NCBI GenBank assembly: GCA_021161545.1
Contig: JAGHAJ010000225.1
Coordinates: 1-10,326 of the forward strand
Source of the DNA: Synergistota bacterium
GTDB taxonomy: Bacteria; Synergistota; JAGHAJ01
Length of the DNA: 10,326 nt
Direction of reading: 5' to 3'
Part shown: piece by piece, positions 960-10,215 of the stretch
Position numbering within the stretch: position 1 is the first letter of the stretch
How the letters are laid out: the number at the start of each line of letters is the position of its first letter
Notes under the pieces: generated by a model
Told to the model about the DNA's origin: nothing
Databases searched by the model: none
What the model saw: only the letters and a program-made list of their open reading frames with translations
Position numbers and translations under genes: made by a program

Positions 960-989
960 TTGACACATCTTGAAGAGTTATTTTATACT
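960..989 (+). promoter_or_regulatory. Sigma-70/SigA-type promoter of the ROK-ABC-GH38-GT cluster
   Basis: A perfect TTGACA -35 box (960-965) is followed, after 18 bases, by TATACT (984-989), five of six matches to TATAAT. Transcription would start near 995-997, giving a leader of about 30 bases before the ATG at 1025. It is the only convincing promoter I found upstream of the seven-gene cluster. Confidence 0.75.
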
Positions 990-1016
990 TTAATTAAGTT
1001 AATTACCTAATTAAAG
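988..1016. promoter_or_regulatory. 29-base palindromic operator, probably bound by the ROK regulator
   Basis: The perfect 9-base arms CTTTAATTA (988-996) and TAATTAAAG (1008-1016) flank an 11-base spacer that is itself partly symmetric about position 1002. Equivalently, three TAATTA hexamers occur at 991-996, 1000-1005 and 1008-1013. The palindrome overlaps the end of the -10 box, the expected start site and the first bases of the AAAGGAG ribosome binding site. Repressor operators are often placed this way. AT-rich palindromes are known for ROK regulators such as NagC and Mlc. That the adjacent regulator binds here is inference. Confidence 0.7.
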
Positions 1017-1024
1017 GAGTTGCT

Positions 1025-2209
1025 ATGTACAAGACATCATTCACAAGCAGTAAAGAAGAGTTATTCTCCTTGATATGCAGATACCAACCTATCGCAAGGA
1101 GTGACATCGCAGAAATAGTTGGGCTTACACGTGCATCAGTATCAAACATGACAAAAGAGCTCATTGCACTGCACCTGATAAGAGAGAGTAAAAAGGTAGG
1201 CAATGGCATAGGGAGAAAGAAAGTGCTATTAGAAGTAAAAGATAATGGTATTCACACGATAGGGATAAATATTGGAAGAAGAAGCATATTTGTCGGGCTC
1301 TACGATGCTGCCGGTAGAAATCTATGGAAAAGAGTGCGCTCCTACACAATGATACATACACTCCAAGAGTATCTATCAGAAGTGAAAGAACTCACAACAG
1401 AGCTCATTAACTGGGCACAGGATAGAGAAATAAACATCGATGCCATAGGTGTAGGCATTCCTGGACCTGTAGACAGTGAAAGTGGCATTTATAGAGCGTC
1501 TCATTTCCTGAAATACGAAATAGTGAATATAAAAAAGATAATGGAAGATGAATTCAGCATACCTACTTATGTTGAGAGAGATGTCAATGCAGCAGTGCTG
1601 GGAGAAAGATTCTTCGGAGCTGGCAGAAGATGTGAAACATTCGCATACCTGCTTATAGTAGAAGGTATAGGAGCCGGCACCGTACTGGATGGACACCTCT
1701 ATAGAGGGGCACATGGACTTGCAGGCAAGATAGGTAGACTTATATTTCCAAAAGAACAGAGTAAAGAATCCACACTATCACTTGAGGAGATGGGAAGCGA
1801 GCTCTCTGCCCTAAAAGTAGCTGAAGAATACGCACAAAAGGACAAAAATGGATATCTATACAAGGTGTTACAGCAAAGACCACTACACATAGATGACATA
1901 CTACAGGCAGTGAGAGAAGGAGACCTCACTGCCATGCAAGTGGTAGATGTAATGGTGCATTATGCCTCAATTGCTGTAGCAAACCTTGTCTTTTTGTTAG
2001 ACCCAAAGCTTATCATCATAAGTGGTGACTTTATAGGAATACCAACCAATTTCGTAGGAAAGCTCAGTGAAAAGGTGAAAAAGATGTTACCTGATCGTCC
2101 TCTACCAAAACTTATAGGCTCACACCTCTACGACCTATCAATATCCCTCGGTGCAGCCACACGAGCCCTATCAGAAACAGTATCAACAAAGATTAGAAAT
2201 ATCTCGTGA
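1025..2209 (+). CDS. ROK-family transcriptional regulator (NagC/XylR/Mlc type)
   Basis: This 394-residue protein has the usual length for ROK repressors. An N-terminal winged helix-turn-helix (about residues 10-70; helix-turn-helix core RSDIAEIVGLTRASVSN, 25-41) precedes a ROK sugar-kinase-like domain (about 77-390). Recognisable ROK elements are IGVGIPGPVD (141-150), ERDVNAAVLGE (184-194) and a GIGAGTVLDGHLYRG glycine-rich segment (214-228). Odd points: the phosphate-1 motif is degenerate (GINIGRRS, with Asn82 in place of Asp). The usual GE(I/L)GH reads GKIGR (234-238), so the sugar-contacting Glu and His are replaced. The CxCGxxGC zinc motif is absent. It should therefore be a regulator without kinase activity, and its effector site looks unusual. 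The ATG follows AAAGGAG with suitable spacing. No terminator separates it from the ABC genes 69 bases downstream, so it is probably a local regulator of this cluster and of itself. Confidence 0.88.
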   Translation: MYKTSFTSSKEELFSLICRYQPIARSDIAEIVGLTRASVSNMTKELIALHLIRESKKVGNGIGRKKVLLEVKDNGIHTIGINIGRRSIFVGLYDAAGRNLWKRVRSYTMIHTLQEYLSEVKELTTELINWAQDREINIDAIGVGIPGPVDSESGIYRASHFLKYEIVNIKKIMEDEFSIPTYVERDVNAAVLGERFFGAGRRCETFAYLLIVEGIGAGTVLDGHLYRGAHGLAGKIGRLIFPKEQSKESTLSLEEMGSELSALKVAEEYAQKDKNGYLYKVLQQRPLHIDDILQAVREGDLTAMQVVDVMVHYASIAVANLVFLLDPKLIIISGDFIGIPTNFVGKLSEKVKKMLPDRPLPKLIGSHLYDLSISLGAATRALSETVSTKIRNIS

Positions 2210-2278: not shown

Positions 2279-3544
2279 ATGAAGAAGTTTGCTGTTATTG
2301 GGTTGATGGTACTGCTGGTTTTTGTAGTTTCGGCATACGCAGTTAGTGCCCCTAAGATATACTTTGTGTCTACCCAGATGCACCCAGCAGGTGAAAGGGA
2401 ATTCATGGTAGGTACACTACTTAAGAGCTTTGCAAAGGAAAGTGGCATAAACGTAGAGTTTCTTGCACTTACATATAATGAGATGCTTTCAAGAGTATCA
2501 GCAGAGGAAAAGACTGGGAAAGTAACTATTTCTGTAATAGGGGATTTACATGGTGGACTGGATGTAATGGCATCCCGTAACCTGTTGCAAGAGGTCAAAG
2601 GAATACCCCTACCCAATAGAACATTCATATCAACATTAGAGAAGTACTCCGTCATAAAAGGCAAAAAAGTCTATGTGCCCTGGATGCAGGCAACATATGT
2701 AATGGTAGTGAATAAAGAGGCTTACAAATATCTACCAAACGGCCTCACAAAAGAAGACGTAAGAAAACCAACCGAAAAATGGACCTATGAAGCATTGCTG
2801 CAATGGGCAAAGAACATGAAAGAAAAGACAGGAACACCAAAGTTCGGCTTACCCATGGCACCAAAGGGACTATTCCACAGGTTCTTGCATGGATATCTAC
2901 TCCCTTCATTTACAGGATACGAAGCAAAGGAGTTTGATTCTCCAAACGGCATCAAGGCATGGGAATACATGAGAAAACTGGTAAACTATATACACCCAGC
3001 AAGTTCTACGTGGGCAGCAATGAGTGAACCACTATTAAAGGGAGAGGTACTACTTGCATGGGATCACACAGCAAGGATAAAACCAGCCATAGTACAGCAA
3101 CCAGACAAATTCGAAGTAATACCGGTTCCAAGGGGTCCTGCAGGTAGAGGATACATTGTTGTAGCTGTGGGACTTGCAGTGCCAAAGAAGGCACCGCAAA
3201 AAGAAGCTGCATACAAACTCATAGATTACCTGACAAGGCCATCTACACAGGTTCTTGTACTACAGCACGTAGGGTTCTTCCCAACAGTAAAGGAGGCAAC
3301 AGGCAAGATACCAACTGGTGCACTCAGAATACTAGCAAGGGGCGTTACAGCACAGTCCTCTTCACCAGACTCTGTCATAGCTATGATACCAAATCTTGGA
3401 AAATATGGTGGAGAATTTACCAATACATACAGAAAGGTGTTCAAGAAGGTAGTTCTGCAAAAGGCGAGCCTGCAAAAAGAGGTATCTGCAGCTGCAAAAC
3501 TGCTGAAGAGCCTATTCGAGAAGGCTGGAACACCAATACAGTAA
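2279..3544 (+). CDS. Extracellular solute-binding protein of a carbohydrate ABC importer
   Basis: This 421-residue protein looks like a family 1 (CUT1, MalE-like) binding protein. It captures the substrate outside the membrane and delivers it to the permease pair encoded next. A signal peptide is clear: MKK, a hydrophobic core (about 4-18), then AYA and VSA sites that would allow cleavage after residue 21 or 24. There is no lipobox cysteine, so the mature protein should be soluble. Family-typical elements include the VPWMQATYVMVVNKEAY strand region, the (T)EKWTYEALLQWAKNMKEKTG helix and a C-terminal part with AAYKLIDYLTRPSTQ. The start ATG is supported by AAGGAGGG seven to eight bases upstream. 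The ligand cannot be read from the sequence. The neighbouring GH38 and glycosyltransferase genes suggest a mannoside or glycosyl-glycerate. Confidence 0.87.
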   Translation: MKKFAVIGLMVLLVFVVSAYAVSAPKIYFVSTQMHPAGEREFMVGTLLKSFAKESGINVEFLALTYNEMLSRVSAEEKTGKVTISVIGDLHGGLDVMASRNLLQEVKGIPLPNRTFISTLEKYSVIKGKKVYVPWMQATYVMVVNKEAYKYLPNGLTKEDVRKPTEKWTYEALLQWAKNMKEKTGTPKFGLPMAPKGLFHRFLHGYLLPSFTGYEAKEFDSPNGIKAWEYMRKLVNYIHPASSTWAAMSEPLLKGEVLLAWDHTARIKPAIVQQPDKFEVIPVPRGPAGRGYIVVAVGLAVPKKAPQKEAAYKLIDYLTRPSTQVLVLQHVGFFPTVKEATGKIPTGALRILARGVTAQSSSPDSVIAMIPNLGKYGGEFTNTYRKVFKKVVLQKASLQKEVSAAAKLLKSLFEKAGTPIQ

Positions 3545-3546
3545 AG

Positions 3547-3574
3547 TAAGTGGGAGGGGTATCCCTCCCACTTA
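3547..3574 (+). promoter_or_regulatory. Intercistronic hairpin after the binding-protein gene
   Basis: A perfect 12-base-pair stem (3547-3558 with 3563-3574, GC-rich TGGGAGGG/CCCTCCCA core) closes a GTAT loop two bases after the stop codon. No T-tract follows, so full termination is unlikely. In MalE/MalF-type operons, hairpins at this junction protect the 3' end of the binding-protein message or partly stop transcription, so that binding protein exceeds permease. I infer the same role here. Confidence 0.75.
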
Positions 3575-3594: not shown

Positions 3595-4446
3595 TTGCGT
3601 AGTGAAAGGTCATTAGCACCGTATCTTCTGTTTATGCCAACCTTGATATACTTAGCAGTATTTCTCGTATATCCTCTACTAAAGGCTTTATTCATGGTAA
3701 TTACACCAGAAGAAGGCACTGGATATACACTTGCAAATATATATGCCGTTTTAAGCGACAGCACTTTCTGGGAAGCACTGAAAAACACCATTCTACTGGC
3801 AGCTGTTATAATCCCCCTACAGGTGTTTCTCGCACTGATGCTTGCACTCTTTGTAAACACAAAATTCAGAGGCTACATGACCATAGTCTATCTCATAACG
3901 ATACCATTGGCCCTCAGTGATGTCTCTGCTGCCTTGATGAGCTACAACATATTCTCACCAAGTGGCTACATAAACAAGATATTGCTTAATCTCAACTTGA
4001 TAAAACACCCTATATACTTCTTCGGATTCAATGCCACAACGAGTGAATTTTGGGTTATAGTGATAACAGAGGTGTGGAGAGCTACCCCACTTGTATTTAT
4101 AATTCTGCTTGCAGGATTACAAATGATAGGAAGGGAATATTTCGAGGCAGCAGATGTATTCGGATTCACCAAATTTCAGAAGTTCATATACATTACTCTT
4201 CCTCTACTAAAACCCAGTCTTCAATCCGCACTATTACTTAGAACACTCTTTGCCTTTCAGATATTTGGTGTAGTCTGGTTGCTCGCGGGAAGGGACATTC
4301 CTATTTTGGCAGGAGAGACTTTCTACCAGCAAACAGAGTTGCAACAGTACCACATAGCAGCCGTATATGGGTTTGTAATTGCGCTTATATCCATCCTGAT
4401 CAGCTGGGTTTATTTAACATTCTTGAAAAGCGCAAAGGAAGTGTAA
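3595..4446 (+). CDS. Carbohydrate ABC transporter permease, MalF/UgpA-like (CUT1)
   Basis: This 283-residue integral membrane protein has about six helices (roughly 7-35, 63-87, 93-118, 150-175, 212-232, 255-277). The cytoplasmic EAA loop that docks on the ATPase is clear: EAADVFG (184-190) followed by ITLP (200-203). The start is TTG at 3595, with AGGAG (3581-3585) nine bases upstream. It gives a short charged MRSERS head before the first helix, and no ATG or GTG fits better. It lies 50 bases after the binding-protein gene, across the hairpin, and three bases before the second permease. It should pair with that permease to form the membrane channel. Confidence 0.88.
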   Translation: MRSERSLAPYLLFMPTLIYLAVFLVYPLLKALFMVITPEEGTGYTLANIYAVLSDSTFWEALKNTILLAAVIIPLQVFLALMLALFVNTKFRGYMTIVYLITIPLALSDVSAALMSYNIFSPSGYINKILLNLNLIKHPIYFFGFNATTSEFWVIVITEVWRATPLVFIILLAGLQMIGREYFEAADVFGFTKFQKFIYITLPLLKPSLQSALLLRTLFAFQIFGVVWLLAGRDIPILAGETFYQQTELQQYHIAAVYGFVIALISILISWVYLTFLKSAKEV

Positions 4447-4449
4447 AAA

Positions 4450-5259
4450 ATGGATAAGGAGAAAATCAAGTCACTTTTGACATTTCTGATAGCAGGGATG
4501 ATAAGTCTATGGTTTCTAACACCCATAATATTCATAACACTATCCGCATTTGCCACATCAAAAGACTACTACAACCCGAACTACATAATTCCCAGACATT
4601 ATACGTTTTCTCACTTCTACAAGCTATTCTTTACACTTAGTGCTGGTCATGCCACATTGATAAGCCTCTCCGTAGCAGCCCTAACCATACTTTTGAGCTT
4701 CCTGTTGGGTGTACCAGCGGGCTACGCACTTTCAAGATACAAATTCAAAGGTAAAAATACTTTAAAACTCACAGTTCTGTCAACAAGGATGTTCCCTCTC
4801 ATGATACTTGCAATACCCCTATTGATAATATTCATGCAGATTGGAATAAGTGATACACTATGGGGAATAGTCCTCGCACATACTACAATGGTACTCCCAT
4901 TTGTCATACTTATAACAAGTTCTATATTTGCAGGTGTAGATATTGCATTTGAGGAAGCTGCCTTAATATTTGGACTTTCAAGGTCCAAAGCATTTTTTAA
5001 GATAACCCTACCATTAGCACTCCCGGGCCTTGCTGCGTCAGCCATCTTTGCATTCATTATGTCATGGAATGAAGTCTTTGTTGCATCTATCCTAACCCTG
5101 CAGAACAGAACTTTACCAGCACAGATCCTAAGCACTGCCATGGATTCACCAGACTACTACAAGTTCACAGCCGGATTTATTATGGCAGTCCCAGCGCTCG
5201 TGTTCATATTCTTTGCCAGAAGATACTTAGTTTCCCTATGGGGTATATCTCTAAAATAA
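4450..5259 (+). CDS. Carbohydrate ABC transporter permease, MalG/UgpE-like (CUT1)
   Basis: This 269-residue membrane protein has about six hydrophobic helices. It has the N-terminal pattern of MalG-type subunits: a first helix, then an external segment with YNPNYIIPRHYTFSHFYKLF. The EAA loop reads EAALIFG (169-175), then KITLP (184-188), and is followed by the SWNEVF motif common in this subunit. The ATG sits three bases after the preceding stop and uses AAGGAA inside the upstream gene, so translation is probably coupled. It forms the second half of the importer channel. Confidence 0.88.
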   Translation: MDKEKIKSLLTFLIAGMISLWFLTPIIFITLSAFATSKDYYNPNYIIPRHYTFSHFYKLFFTLSAGHATLISLSVAALTILLSFLLGVPAGYALSRYKFKGKNTLKLTVLSTRMFPLMILAIPLLIIFMQIGISDTLWGIVLAHTTMVLPFVILITSSIFAGVDIAFEEAALIFGLSRSKAFFKITLPLALPGLAASAIFAFIMSWNEVFVASILTLQNRTLPAQILSTAMDSPDYYKFTAGFIMAVPALVFIFFARRYLVSLWGISLK

Positions 5260-5274: not shown

Positions 5275-6348
5275 ATGGTAAAGGTAACCTTGCAGGAAGT
5301 AACCAAACGGTTTGGAAAGACAACAGCAGTCAATAGAATAAGCGTTGAAATAGAAAAAGGCGAGTTCATAGTACTACTTGGACCATCTGGCTGCGGAAAG
5401 ACCACGCTATTAAGATGTATATCGGGCCTCGAAAAAGTAACAGAAGGAAGAATATTATTCAACGAAGGAGATGTCACAAATCTACCACCAAAAGATAGAA
5501 ATATATCAATGGTATTTCAAAATTATGCAGTCTGGCCACATTTAAAGGTAAAGGACAACATTGGGTTTCCCCTAAAAATAAAGAAAAAACCCACACAAGA
5601 AATAGAAACAAAGGTAAAGTGGGCTTCAGAGATGCTTGGAATAACAGAGCTACTTGACAGATATCCACATCAACTATCAGGTGGACAAAGGCAAAGGGTA
5701 GCAGTTGCAAGGGCTATCGTTATGGAACCTGAAGTACTTTTAATGGATGAACCCCTTTCTAACCTTGACGCATTATTAAGGGTGAAGATGCGCAGTGAAA
5801 TCAAAAAACTTCAGGAGAGCTTGAAGGTTACGACAATATACGTAACACATGACCAGGTAGAAGCCATGACAATGGGAGACAGAATAGCAGTCCTAAAAGA
5901 TGGGAAACTTCAACAGATTGGCGGTTCCAACGAGATATACCACAAACCAACAAATCTGTTCGTTGCCGGTTTCATAGGTTCACCTCAGATGAACTTTATC
6001 AACGTAGAAGTCAAAGAGGAGGAGAACATACTGATTGTTGCAACAAGCGGGCTTGAGATACCACTTCCACCTGCAATACCCATCAAAAAGTCTGAATACA
6101 TACTTGGTATAAGGCCAGAAGACATACACATCAAAGAACTTCCCAATAGCACACGAGTAACTGGGGAAATATACTTCGTTGAAGCCCTTAGGTCAGATAC
6201 CGTACTACACGTTAACACAGATTTTGGAAAGCTTGTAGTAAAGATACCTGGAGATTTTGATGCAAAAGAAGGCGAAAACATAAGCCTGTATATAGACAAC
6301 AGCAAGATACATTTGTTCGAAAAGGAGAGTGAACTATCAATACTATGA
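5275..6348 (+). CDS. Carbohydrate ABC transporter ATPase, MalK/UgpC/MsmK-like
   Basis: This 357-residue ATPase powers the importer. All nucleotide-site motifs are intact: Walker A GPSGCGKTT (36-44), Q-loop Gln82, signature LSGGQ (134-138), Walker B with Asp158-Glu159, D-loop SNLD (162-165) and the switch His192. A C-terminal part (about 235-357) matches the TOBE/OB regulatory domain of MalK-type proteins, including a GIRPEDIHI segment. GGGAGGAA precedes the ATG by a few bases. The last four bases (ATGA, 6345-6348) overlap the start of the GH38 gene. A dedicated ATPase makes the importer complete within the cluster. Confidence 0.93.
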   Translation: MVKVTLQEVTKRFGKTTAVNRISVEIEKGEFIVLLGPSGCGKTTLLRCISGLEKVTEGRILFNEGDVTNLPPKDRNISMVFQNYAVWPHLKVKDNIGFPLKIKKKPTQEIETKVKWASEMLGITELLDRYPHQLSGGQRQRVAVARAIVMEPEVLLMDEPLSNLDALLRVKMRSEIKKLQESLKVTTIYVTHDQVEAMTMGDRIAVLKDGKLQQIGGSNEIYHKPTNLFVAGFIGSPQMNFINVEVKEEENILIVATSGLEIPLPPAIPIKKSEYILGIRPEDIHIKELPNSTRVTGEIYFVEALRSDTVLHVNTDFGKLVVKIPGDFDAKEGENISLYIDNSKIHLFEKESELSIL

Positions 6349-8993
6349 AATACAGAGGCTTTGTAATATCACATACGCATTGGGATAGAGAATGGTATCT
6401 ACCCTTCGAGCAATACAGAATCAGACTCCAAAGGCTCGTAGAAGAATTAACAGAGTTGATGGAAGAAGACAGTTCTTACAAATACTTCATGTTAGACGGT
6501 CAGACCGTTATTATGGAAGATATACAAGAGACATTTCCTGAATATGCAGAGAAACTGAAGAAACTCATGAAAAAGGGTAGAATACTTGCGGGACCATGGT
6601 ATACACTCCCCGATGAGTTCCTCATATCAGGAGAGTCTTTGATCAGGAACTATCTCTATGGGTTATCTGTACTAAACCGTCTAAGTATAACTCCGATGAA
6701 TATAGCCTACTTACCAGACATGTTTGGCCATTCCGCATATATACCAACAGTAATTGCATCCCTGGGCATGAAAGAGGCTGTAATATGGAGAGGTATAGGA
6801 GATAAATCAAGAGAAACTGAGTTTATATGGAAAGGTCCCGATGGCTCAGAAGTTCTGACAGAATCCCTTATAGCCACATACTCCAACTTAAAGAGACTAC
6901 CAGAGGACTATAAAGGGTTCAAGGAATGTGTGTTGGCCACAGCAAAGAGCCTTATCCCACATCTAACCACCACCAATATTCTCTTCATGAACGGCACAGA
7001 CCATGAATTCCCATATAAAAACCTCTCTAACTATCTAAAGATGTTCAACGAGGAGTCGAATGAGCTTGAACTTTTGCATTCTAACCTGCCGCAATTTTTC
7101 AAGGAGATTCAAGCATCCACCACTAACCTAAAGATAGTAGAAGGAGAATTCAGGTGTCCCAAATATGAGCACATTTTGAAAGACATAACATCTTCGAGGA
7201 TATACTTAAAGCAATCCAACCGTCTTGCAGAAAGTTTATTGACAAGGTATCTTGAACCACTATTGGCATACTCACTTATAGGCAAAGCCTGCCATACAGA
7301 CGATTTAAATTACTTAGACTACCTCTGGAAAGTTTTATTAAAAAACCACGCCCACGACAGCATAGGGGGGTGCAGCATAGACAGAGTGCATCAAGAAGTG
7401 GAAACAAGATTCTCAAAAGTCATAGATGGAGCCCGGATGCACATTGCACGCATTTTATCACAATTGATCAAAGAAACCGACGGGGAAAGACTATCACTGC
7501 TGGTATATAATCCAACAGAGAAAAGGGCTGAAACAATAGAAAAAGAGGTAATCATGCCGCCAGATTTTAGCGGCCTCTTCAAAGTATTCTCTGAAGACGG
7601 AGAAGAAATAGATTCAGAAACAGAATTTCTGTGCACCGTATCTGCACAGAAAAAAGGGGGGATTTTGTTCCAGAGGGAAAGTTTAGAATACCTTAAACAC
7701 TTCTCAACTACATACACACAGTATCTTAAAGATTTAGCCGCATCCAGATATAAGATTACATTCAGGGATACACTGGAACCATTTGGATTCAAAAAATATG
7801 TTATAAAACCTATAAGAGGTAAAAACACTATACCACACACCCTATCTACCAATGAGATAGAGACAAAAACATTAAAGATAAGGATAAATGAAGATGGAAG
7901 CTTATTCATAAAAGACAAGAGAACCAACATCACATATCCACGCATTCACTTTTTCGAAGATGAAGGAGACGCAGGAGATGGGTATAACTTCTCTCCACCA
8001 AAGAATCAAAAAATCGTATCAACGACGGGAAGAAAAGCTGAAGTAACAAACATAAAAGAGGGTAAGTATCACATAATAGCCAACATATCCTATAATTTGT
8101 TGCTCCCTAAATCCCTATCCCCAAATAGAACTGCAAGGAGCAAAGAACTCATAAGAAGCCAAATAACTTCCACAATAAAGATACACAAAAACTCACCAAG
8201 AATAGACTTTCTCACATCATATCGTAACGAAGCTCTTGATCATAGACTAAGGGTATGGTTTCAAACACCAATAGTAACAGATGAAAATCATGCAGCTGAC
8301 TATTTTGGACACGTAACAAGGGAAAACCAAATCAAGGGAGATTTCAATATGTGGACAGAAACACCATCAGAAACATACCCAATGCATGGTCATGCGTTCA
8401 TTACTGACGTAAAAAATACCTTTATCCTTTTATCCAAAGGGCTACCAGAATACGCAACAAGGCTGAATGAAAGAAAAGAAATAGCACTTGGTTTAACACT
8501 ACTAAGGGCTGTTGGATGGCTCTCGAGAGACGATTTACTAACGAGAAAAGAGCACGCAGGCCCACCTATTGCAACACCAGAAGCACAATGCTTAAGAAAG
8601 TTTCACTATGAATACTCAATATACATAGGCAATGAAATGTCACCAGTTGAGATATACAAAGAAGCAAATAGATATATATATTCCCCATTGTGCATGCTTG
8701 ATACAGATTTCATCTTCGCCACGAAAAGAAAAATATTCGAAATAAACGGTAACTGCCTCGTATCATCCATAAAGGTCGACACCAAGAAAACAGGCATCAT
8801 AATAAGAATCTTCAATCCCCACAAATCTCTGGAAGATGTCTGTCTAAAACCGTTATTCCAGTTTAAGCAACTGAATATATTAAATTCTGCCGAAGTTTGC
8901 ACAAACCCAAAAGAAAGAACAAGCTTGAAAAATGGAACTTTATCTATTAAACTCAAGCCACATGAGATAAAAACGATAGGATTTACACTATAA
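6345..8993 (+). CDS. GH38 alpha-mannosidase, MngB-like (candidate mannosylglycerate hydrolase)
   Basis: This 882-residue protein is similar in length to E. coli MngB (about 877) and aligns with it by eye over its full length: HTHWDREW, LDGQT, GPWYT, YLPDMFG, WRG, KNHAHDSIG, the DEGDAGDGYNFSP region, DHRLRV and TLLRAVGWLSRDDL. GH38 enzymes are retaining, zinc-dependent alpha-mannosidases. By family analogy, the zinc ligands are His12, Asp14, Asp125 and His337, the nucleophile is Asp125, and Asp219 (NGTDHEF) is the likely acid/base. Domains run in family order: N-terminal catalytic barrel, helical bundle, then beta-rich C-terminal domains. There is no signal peptide, so it acts in the cytoplasm on imported substrate. 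It overlaps the ATPase gene by four bases, with AAAGGAGAG upstream. E. coli MngB acts on 6-phosphomannosyl-glycerate delivered by a PTS. With ABC uptake, the substrate here would be unphosphorylated. Other alpha-mannosides remain possible. Confidence 0.9.
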   Translation: MKYRGFVISHTHWDREWYLPFEQYRIRLQRLVEELTELMEEDSSYKYFMLDGQTVIMEDIQETFPEYAEKLKKLMKKGRILAGPWYTLPDEFLISGESLIRNYLYGLSVLNRLSITPMNIAYLPDMFGHSAYIPTVIASLGMKEAVIWRGIGDKSRETEFIWKGPDGSEVLTESLIATYSNLKRLPEDYKGFKECVLATAKSLIPHLTTTNILFMNGTDHEFPYKNLSNYLKMFNEESNELELLHSNLPQFFKEIQASTTNLKIVEGEFRCPKYEHILKDITSSRIYLKQSNRLAESLLTRYLEPLLAYSLIGKACHTDDLNYLDYLWKVLLKNHAHDSIGGCSIDRVHQEVETRFSKVIDGARMHIARILSQLIKETDGERLSLLVYNPTEKRAETIEKEVIMPPDFSGLFKVFSEDGEEIDSETEFLCTVSAQKKGGILFQRESLEYLKHFSTTYTQYLKDLAASRYKITFRDTLEPFGFKKYVIKPIRGKNTIPHTLSTNEIETKTLKIRINEDGSLFIKDKRTNITYPRIHFFEDEGDAGDGYNFSPPKNQKIVSTTGRKAEVTNIKEGKYHIIANISYNLLLPKSLSPNRTARSKELIRSQITSTIKIHKNSPRIDFLTSYRNEALDHRLRVWFQTPIVTDENHAADYFGHVTRENQIKGDFNMWTETPSETYPMHGHAFITDVKNTFILLSKGLPEYATRLNERKEIALGLTLLRAVGWLSRDDLLTRKEHAGPPIATPEAQCLRKFHYEYSIYIGNEMSPVEIYKEANRYIYSPLCMLDTDFIFATKRKIFEINGNCLVSSIKVDTKKTGIIIRIFNPHKSLEDVCLKPLFQFKQLNILNSAEVCTNPKERTSLKNGTLSIKLKPHEIKTIGFTL

Positions 8994-9006
8994 AGGGAGG
9001 ATACCA

Positions 9007-10185
9007 ATGTCACTTGACGAAGACATCAAAATCAAACTCAAAAAACTGGGTAAATTAGAGGTAATTATCGGCATACCCAGCTATAACAACTGTTCCACCA
9101 TAGGAAATGTTATAAAGCAAGCTGCAAAAGGTATAAAAGGCAAAAAAGGAGCTATTTTGAATTCAGATGGTAGCTCAAGCGATGGAACACCCCAGGAAGT
9201 TAATAGAATAGCCAAAGAGTGCGAAATGCCAGTGATGTCCTTCCAATACAGGGGGATTTCAGGAAAGGGAAGCTCCATAAAGGCAATATTAGAAGCTGCC
9301 AGCACAACCGGAGCAGACGCCATAATACTGCTCGACAGTGACTTAAGAAACATCAAACCTTCATGGTCTAACGGTTTCTACAAAGCCATAGAGAGCGGTT
9401 ATGATCTCATTACACCTTACTATATAAGACACAAATATGATGGCACTATAACCAATCACCTTGTATACCCATTGGTAAAAGGGATATACGGAATAGATAT
9501 ACGGCAGCCTATAGGTGGGGATTTTGGCATATCTGGTAGACTTGCAGAAAAACTTCTGGAAGTGCTGAATAGTAGTAGTAATGAGAGCATTCTAAGATTT
9601 GGCATAGATATATTCATCACACTCAGCGCAGTTGCAAACAGGTTCAAAGTTGCACAGCTGTCGCTTGGTGCAAAAATACACGACCCAAAAGACCCAGCAC
9701 ATTCACTCAAACCAATGTTCATACAGGTAGTACACACACTCTTCTCACTTATAGAAAAAGATACTCACTACTGGAAAAGTGTAAAAGAGCTCACCACCCC
9801 GCCTATACTTGGTAATAGCAAATATGAAGAACCTCCAGAAGTAAAAATAGATAGAGATGCTTTATTTAATGGTTTCTACGAAGGACTCAACAAATTTAAA
9901 GGATTCTACAACACCATTCTGGCAAAGGAATCCTCTGCAGGTCTATTCAGTCCTGAAATCACATCCGAAGCATGGGCAAATGTCTTATACGACTTTCTCC
10001 TATACTTCAAGAGGACAAAGGACAAACAAAAAGTTGTAGAGAGGCTACTACCTCTATACCTCGGAAGGACTCTCGCATTCGTCACAAACACAGAAAAACT
10101 ATCAAATCTGGAAGCAGAAAATATCATACAGAGACAGGCAGAGATATTCTGGGAGAGAAGACAGAGATTCATCGAAAAGACATAA
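9007..10185 (+). CDS. GT-A glycosyltransferase, GT78/GT81-like (mannosylglycerate or glucosylglycerate synthase type)
   Basis: This 392-residue soluble glycosyltransferase has a single GT-A fold. Motifs in order: IGIPSYNNCSTIGNVI (21-36, nucleotide-binding start), NSDGSSSDGT (52-61), the GKG loop (86-88), the DSD metal motif (110-112), QPIGGDFGIS (167-176, like QPLGGE/QPLSGE in the two families), and LGAKIH with His225, the likely third metal ligand. After the core comes a long helical tail (about 230-392), as in Rhodothermus mannosylglycerate synthase, which has a similar length. Such enzymes join a sugar from GDP-mannose, UDP-glucose or similar to glycerate or 3-phosphoglycerate. No phosphatase that would be needed for the two-step route is visible. 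AGGGAGG sits six bases before the ATG, and the gene starts 13 bases after the GH38 stop. The donor and acceptor are not known, and another polar acceptor is possible. Confidence 0.78.
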   Translation: MSLDEDIKIKLKKLGKLEVIIGIPSYNNCSTIGNVIKQAAKGIKGKKGAILNSDGSSSDGTPQEVNRIAKECEMPVMSFQYRGISGKGSSIKAILEAASTTGADAIILLDSDLRNIKPSWSNGFYKAIESGYDLITPYYIRHKYDGTITNHLVYPLVKGIYGIDIRQPIGGDFGISGRLAEKLLEVLNSSSNESILRFGIDIFITLSAVANRFKVAQLSLGAKIHDPKDPAHSLKPMFIQVVHTLFSLIEKDTHYWKSVKELTTPPILGNSKYEEPPEVKIDRDALFNGFYEGLNKFKGFYNTILAKESSAGLFSPEITSEAWANVLYDFLLYFKRTKDKQKVVERLLPLYLGRTLAFVTNTEKLSNLEAENIIQRQAEIFWERRQRFIEKT

Positions 10186-10215
10186 AAAAACGGGCACCAG
10201 AAAGTGGTACCCGTT
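10184..10215 (-). terminator. Intrinsic terminator, minus-strand orientation, at the cluster's 3' end
   Basis: Arms at 10189-10198 and 10206-10215 form a ten-pair stem with one mismatch (10195/10209) around a seven-base loop. Read on the minus strand, the stem is followed by seven T's (complement of 10184-10190), a classic Rho-independent terminator. On the plus strand there is no T-tract after the stem, so for the glycosyltransferase transcript it may act only weakly or as a 3' stabiliser. Its orientation implies a convergent gene entering from the right. Confidence 0.65.

Follow-up and report, generated by a model that had tools for sequence, protein, structure and literature searches.

The window analysed here (the whole stretch of 10,326 nucleotides) appears, on balance, to contain a ROK-controlled operon for taking up, turning over and making compatible solutes of the glycosylglycerate class, more precisely of the mannosyl(glucosyl)glycerate type. 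This reading builds on protein families, a modelled fold, catalytic residues and gene order, all documented below, while the substrates are throughout those that we infer. The seven co-oriented genes follow the order ROK-SBP-permease-permease-ATPase-GH38-GT, and the features of the window are as follows.

960..989, + strand: promoter-like site (TTGACA-18-TATACT, 11/12, the single best in the scan; a consensus match, not functional evidence)
988..1016, no strand: AT-rich inverted repeat CTTTAATTAAGT/ACCTAATTAAAG, candidate operator (consensus match only)
1025..2209, + strand: ROK-family transcriptional regulator, 394 aa (PF00480, 125 bits; NagC-like, 147.9 bits)
2279..3544, + strand: extracellular solute-binding protein (SBP), 421 aa (PF13416, 103 bits)
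3547..3574, no strand: strong 12-bp hairpin between the SBP and permease A genes (hairpin scan)
3595..4446, + strand: ABC permease A, 283 aa (PF00528)
4450..5259, + strand: ABC permease B, 269 aa (PF00528)
5275..6348, + strand: ABC ATPase of the UgpC/MalK type, 357 aa (NF008653, 432.9 bits, cut-off 432)
6345..8993, + strand: GH38 alpha-mannosidase of the MngB clade, 882 aa, predicted to be cytosolic (domains, tree, active-site residues)
9007..10185, + strand: glycosyltransferase (GT), a GT-A protein resembling single-step glycosylglycerate synthases, 392 aa, probably of the Ggs type (profile, model fold, conserved residues)
10189..10215, no strand: hairpin at the end of the operon, resembling a terminator for the convergent polyamine gene present on contig C219

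A preliminary description had placed the alpha-mannosidase and transferase genes 13 nt apart, which the ORF coordinates confirm. The short gaps between the genes, including this one, together with the 4-nt overlap of the 3' end of the ATPase gene with the start of the GH38 gene (6345-6348), make a single transcript likely. An ORF at 26-340 gave no significant family match, and other small ORFs, on either strand, overlap with the seven genes.

Only 141 nt remain between the end of the GT gene and the end of the contig. Contig C219 of the same assembly (G000:C219:1-5452, L040) starts inside a 97%-identical copy of this gene, which was rejected as a paralogue since its 3' flank matches the end of the window; C219 most probably carries the continuation of the locus in a strain variant. 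The GT copy is followed there by convergent genes for AdoMet decarboxylase, agmatinase, spermidine synthase and pyruvoyl arginine decarboxylase, beyond which lie a mannose-1-phosphate guanylyltransferase-like gene and then a sugar-nucleotide dehydratase-like gene. The shared 3' flank and the convergent polyamine genes thus indicate that the GT gene is the last of the operon.

The ROK protein is the probable autoregulating repressor of the operon, and the candidate operator overlaps the promoter-like site and sits just before the ROK start. The hairpin at 3547-3574 is possibly an element of mRNA stability or attenuation, or one that raises expression of the SBP. A ROK protein that is 54% identical to the one in the window comes from another locus (L070:758-10211), whose other genes include those for a GH130 mannoside phosphorylase, a GH38 and an ABC transporter as well as a GT2-like gene.

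All domains of the 6345-8993 product are those of GH38 (PF01074, 139.7 bits; PF09261; PF07748; PF17677). Among NCBIfam models it matches mannosylglycerate hydrolase PRK09819 best, with a score (546.9 bits) below the equivalog cut-off of 1138. The active site is complete when compared with the S. pyogenes structure (Zn ligands, nucleophile and acid/base: H12, D14, D125, H337, D219), residues H12, D14, D125, D219, H337 and D338 being equivalent to H13, D15, D125, D232, H351 and D352 of SpGH38. With its first catalytic motif beginning as early as residue 10, the enzyme is predicted to be cytosolic and to have no signal peptide. Phylogenetically it falls within a supported five-sequence clade (UFBoot 99, SH-aLRT 98) that includes E. 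coli MngB, an enzyme of the mannosylglycerate pathway (PMC2815779). A split of 9 versus 25 sequences (100/100) parts it from the GH38s of Thermotogota operons, to which it is only about 30% identical, and a Thermococcus GH38 (L076) represents a third lineage. Given this low identity and the score below the MngB equivalog cut-off, its substrate could differ.

Conservation of the locus was surveyed in 103 Thermotogota genomes searched with the window SBP; the counts come from loci chosen by the SBP alone, an earlier set of loci having been chosen by the GT. SBP orthologues (47-63% identical to the window SBP in Thermotogota and Thermococcaceae) were found in 32 of the 103 genomes, mannosylglucosylglycerate synthase (MggS) in 76 and the GT in 65. 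The GT was present in 30 of the 32 SBP genomes (Fisher 5e-6) and MggS in 60 of the 65 GT genomes (Fisher 4e-8), both p-values ignoring shared ancestry, which inflates them. In 24 of the 32 SBP genomes the GT and/or MggS lay no more than 12 kb from the SBP, and in 7 of the remaining 8 the SBP was located on a short contig or near a contig end.

The GH38 gene followed the ATPase gene in 27 of 33 retrieved loci, 26 of which share the 4-nt overlap seen in the window. GH38 and GT occurred in one operon at 21 Thermotogota loci (13 times adjacent, 7 times separated by MggS alone), so that the condition under which the preliminary description would have been refuted, a pair not kept as neighbours in related genomes, does not hold. 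The commonest orders were SBP-PermA-PermB-ATP-GH38-GT-RpiR-MggS and the same with GH38-MggS-GT-RpiR at its end. The window reproduces the SBP-PermA-PermB-ATP-GH38-GT order, including the overlap. The Thermotogota operons usually also carry RpiR and MggS, both of which are absent from the window operon. A second, different type of ABC transporter is linked to the GT and RpiR in Kosmotogaceae, Thermosipho and another Thermotogota genome (L014, L018, L021, L024), and disrupted copies of MggS (a frame with seven stops) and of the GT (frames with one internal TAA) were seen in G127:C9, G179:C34 and G180:C65.

One of the surveyed genomes, with the order SBP-PermA-PermB-ATP-GH38-MggS-GT-RpiR, we take to be that of T. 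maritima MSB8. Its gene order fits TM1235 down to TM1228 (UgtR), its ABC proteins are about 54-64% identical to those of the window, and among the control genomes only T. maritima gave MggS above the cut-off. The Thermotogota operon therefore appears to be the T. maritima UgtR (TM1228) regulon, which, with its UgtEFGK transporter, has been listed as a sugar catabolic pathway still to be characterised (PMC3750489). The crystallised T. maritima GH38, TM1851, was set aside as the operon homologue, since TM1228 matches the gene order and TM1851 is numbered near UgpR/TM1856; this is reasoning from locus numbers, not from sequence.

The window GT has a GT2-like fold and matches glucosyl-3-phosphoglycerate synthase (GpgS) in NCBIfam with 41.7 bits against a cut-off of 262; with Pfam MGS_GT it scores 26.3 bits, just below the gathering score of 27, and its relative in L006 reaches 42 bits. 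A single-sequence phmmer search of the PDB gave no match, and a profile of 24 relatives matched GpgS and mannosylglycerate synthase (MGS) exclusively. These matches and the PRK09819 score of the hydrolase bear out the earlier claim that both enzymes have glycosyl-glycerate relatives. For the AlphaFold2 model (pLDDT 93.5, pTM 0.91), the nearest solved fold to the full-length protein is MGS, with Z 36.5 over 350 of 392 residues (model 19-390 to chain 2-381); the alignment takes in the C-terminal helical domain, which is absent from GpgS (Z 22.4, 225 residues). Membership of GpgS was rejected on both score and fold.

In MGS the donor network comprises K76, D100 and D192, and the glycerate carboxylate is held by I138 and T139, an Ile-Thr pair that has the same role in GpgS (PMC2581804). 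The counterparts in the window GT, obtained from a profile alignment with GpgS and the correspondences in that paper, are K87, D110, D201, I148 and T149. K87, D110-S-D112 (the DXD motif), I148-T149, D201 and H225 are conserved, and in the 24 relatives almost all of the catalytic Lys/Asp/Asp residues and of the Ile-Thr pair are invariant. The MGS fold and the matching donor and acceptor residues thus suggest that the GT acts like a single-step glycosylglycerate synthase. From its operon context and the studies of Fernandes et al. in 2007 and 2010, which reportedly described glucosylglycerate synthase (Ggs) from Petrotoga mobilis and Persephonella marina, it is probably of the Ggs type, and would then most likely transfer glucose to glycerate. 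Ggs is classified as GT81 in CAZy.

The same structural evidence lends some weight to a different assignment, in which the GT is a mannosylglycerate synthase using GDP-mannose and D-glycerate, and its product is what the GH38 hydrolyses, so that the two enzymes would truly oppose each other and between them determine how much solute is present. The best structural match is indeed a GDP-mannose enzyme, a mannose-1-phosphate guanylyltransferase-like gene lies downstream on C219, and a convincing MggS was not found in the host genome (82% complete), which gave sub-cut-off matches only. Nevertheless, we consider this assignment unlikely, since the GT of the relatives repeatedly shares an operon with MggS, and the window GT has its catalytic and acceptor motifs in common with these MggS-operon GTs. 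The acceptor of MggS is, according to its NCBIfam name and reportedly also to Fernandes 2010, glucosylglycerate.

The association extends to archaea and to a further bacterial phylum. An SBP orthologue was found in 49 of 94 Thermococcaceae genomes, and at 19 of 25 loci of this family the GT is divergent and adjacent to two Gfo/Idh oxidoreductase genes that lead the ABC genes, which are usually followed by TrmB. About half of those loci carry one further gene after these; the three of its proteins that were scanned had glycerate 2-kinase as their best NCBIfam model (297-323 bits, under the cut-off of 550), and the remaining ones are 69-86% identical to one of the three. In two Thermococcaceae loci a GH38 follows TrmB. 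The presence of two Gfo/Idh oxidoreductases alongside transporter and GT (L159-L183) is as in 3-keto-glycoside chemistry, and these oxidoreductases are a possible non-hydrolytic route for glycosylglycerates. A Chloroflexota locus has the order SBP-PermA-PermB-ATP-Gfo/Idh-Gfo/Idh-MggS-like-GT. What these settings share is the transporter, the GT and glycerate-linked enzymes; it is the catabolic enzyme that varies.

This distribution bears on another explanation, that the operon scavenges environmental alpha-mannosides (manno-oligosaccharides or glycoprotein glycans), with the ROK protein sensing mannose and the GT being a bystander or making an unrelated glucosylated product. ROK, ABC and glycosidase genes together are a common layout for sugar use, the 54%-identical ROK relative is encoded beside a GH130 mannoside phosphorylase and a GH38, and the Thermotoga ROK protein ManR is mannose-responsive (PMC3750489). 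Yet the linkage of the GT to the ABC genes is kept in bacteria and archaea even where GH38 is missing, and its linked partners, MggS and glycerate 2-kinase, are not mannan enzymes, which makes such a role distinctly improbable.

Within the phylum of the window, the closest relative of the transporter is encoded in genome G006 (L158, G006:C10, SBP at 9431-10696; 70-81% identity, 76% for the SBP), with no GH38, GT or ROK gene beside it. The GT of G006 lies on another contig, together with an MPGP phosphatase and GpgS. This arrangement, GT-MPGP phosphatase-GpgS, occurs in two genomes of the phylum and is another glycosylglycerate setting; the Persephonella Ggs operon is said to be similar. The host genome contains two genes of the glycerate-2-kinase family. 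That the window GT itself uses 3-phosphoglycerate in the manner of GpgS and supplies the synthesis of a polysaccharide with a glycerate cap, on the model of the methylglucose lipopolysaccharide pathway of mycobacteria, is very improbable: GpgS is its best NCBIfam match, though far under the cut-off, and is among the PDB profile matches, but fold and length fit MGS instead, no MPGP-type phosphatase scored above the cut-off in the 82% complete host genome (HAD match of 23 bits versus 164.75), and no polysaccharide genes adjoin.

In the favoured pathway of uptake, turnover and synthesis, the importer would bring in mannosylglycerate or mannosylglucosylglycerate (MGG) that other thermophiles nearby have released, and the GH38 would cut off the terminal alpha-mannose, yielding mannose and either glycerate or glucosylglycerate. 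Glycerate could then enter metabolism via glycerate kinase, or glucosylglycerate could be retained. The GT, for its part, would make glucosylglycerate de novo in a single step, with a nucleotide sugar as the glucose donor and D-glycerate as the acceptor. Import and synthesis may thus serve one solute pool under different conditions (scavenging or recovery as opposed to stress). In most sister operons MggS is expected to add the very mannose that the GH38 would remove, and the bond formed by the GT is most likely that between glucose and glycerate. Acting on different bonds and under different conditions, GH38 and GT would be partners around one pool, with no obligatory futile cycle. Since the whole operon is apparently under one ROK protein, post-translational control or growth phase must set the direction of this pool.

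Hence, of the preliminary interpretation, the compatible-solute idea gains from the linked MggS and, in archaea, the linked glycerate 2-kinase, and it stands together with the glycosyl-glycerate relatives and the conserved pair. The framing of the two enzymes as a futile cycle is not supported, and synthesis of a glycan precursor finds no backing at this locus. That cassettes of this kind recur in thermophilic bacteria and archaea suggests that the seemingly opposing enzymes belong to a single pathway. A more specific version, remodelling, is possible but rather doubtful: foreign mannosyl(glucosyl)glycerate would be imported and stripped of mannose by the GH38 for energy, and the glycerate core would be kept or re-capped with glucose by the GT as the cell's own protectant. 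If true, nutrition and protection from stress would be coupled within a single operon.

The slot beside the transporter and synthase appears to have been filled from differing GH38 clades in different lineages. The presence of different GH38 lineages in the same position, next to the same type of transporter, points to selection for the ability to cleave alpha-mannose from a substrate that they have in common, and we take the displacement to reflect this. The transporter-mannosidase-synthase cassette recurs in Thermotogota, and transporter and synthase recur jointly in Thermococcaceae, which suggests that the heat and salt protectants of one thermophile are recycled or scavenged by others. As far as can be read from the genome (82% complete), the window holds a distinct variant of the cassette: predicted to be ROK-controlled, with no MggS or MPGP phosphatase found, and with a GH38 of a clade unlike that of the Thermotogota operons.

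Four known systems offer points of comparison. The GH38 belongs to the same clade as E. coli MngB (99/98), with 30% identity over 854 aligned columns and a complete active site. MngB, a 2-O-(6-phospho-mannosyl)-glycerate hydrolase, acts behind a PTS on a phosphorylated substrate, whereas the ABC importer of the window would deliver an unphosphorylated solute, and the window enzyme scores under the equivalog cut-off. The GT shares with the mannosylglycerate synthase of Rhodothermus marinus (GT78; PDB 2bo4, 2y4m) the full-length fold, the catalytic residues, the Ile-Thr pair and the lack of a phosphate step. It differs in being only about 19% identical to that enzyme, and in having relatives that are tied genomically to the use of glucosylglycerate, not to mannosylglycerate synthesis. 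The Ggs enzymes of Petrotoga and Persephonella are said to be single-step GTs encoded with MggS or beside GpgP-GpgS, and relatives of the window GT are found in like contexts, MggS not having been found in the 82% complete host genome. Finally, the UgtR regulon of T. maritima (SBP-PermA-PermB-ATP-GH38-MggS-GT-RpiR) has the transporter, GH38 and GT in common with the window, which in turn has ROK in place of RpiR, no MggS, and a GH38 of another clade; the link to glycosylglycerate solutes gives this regulon a direct, testable function.
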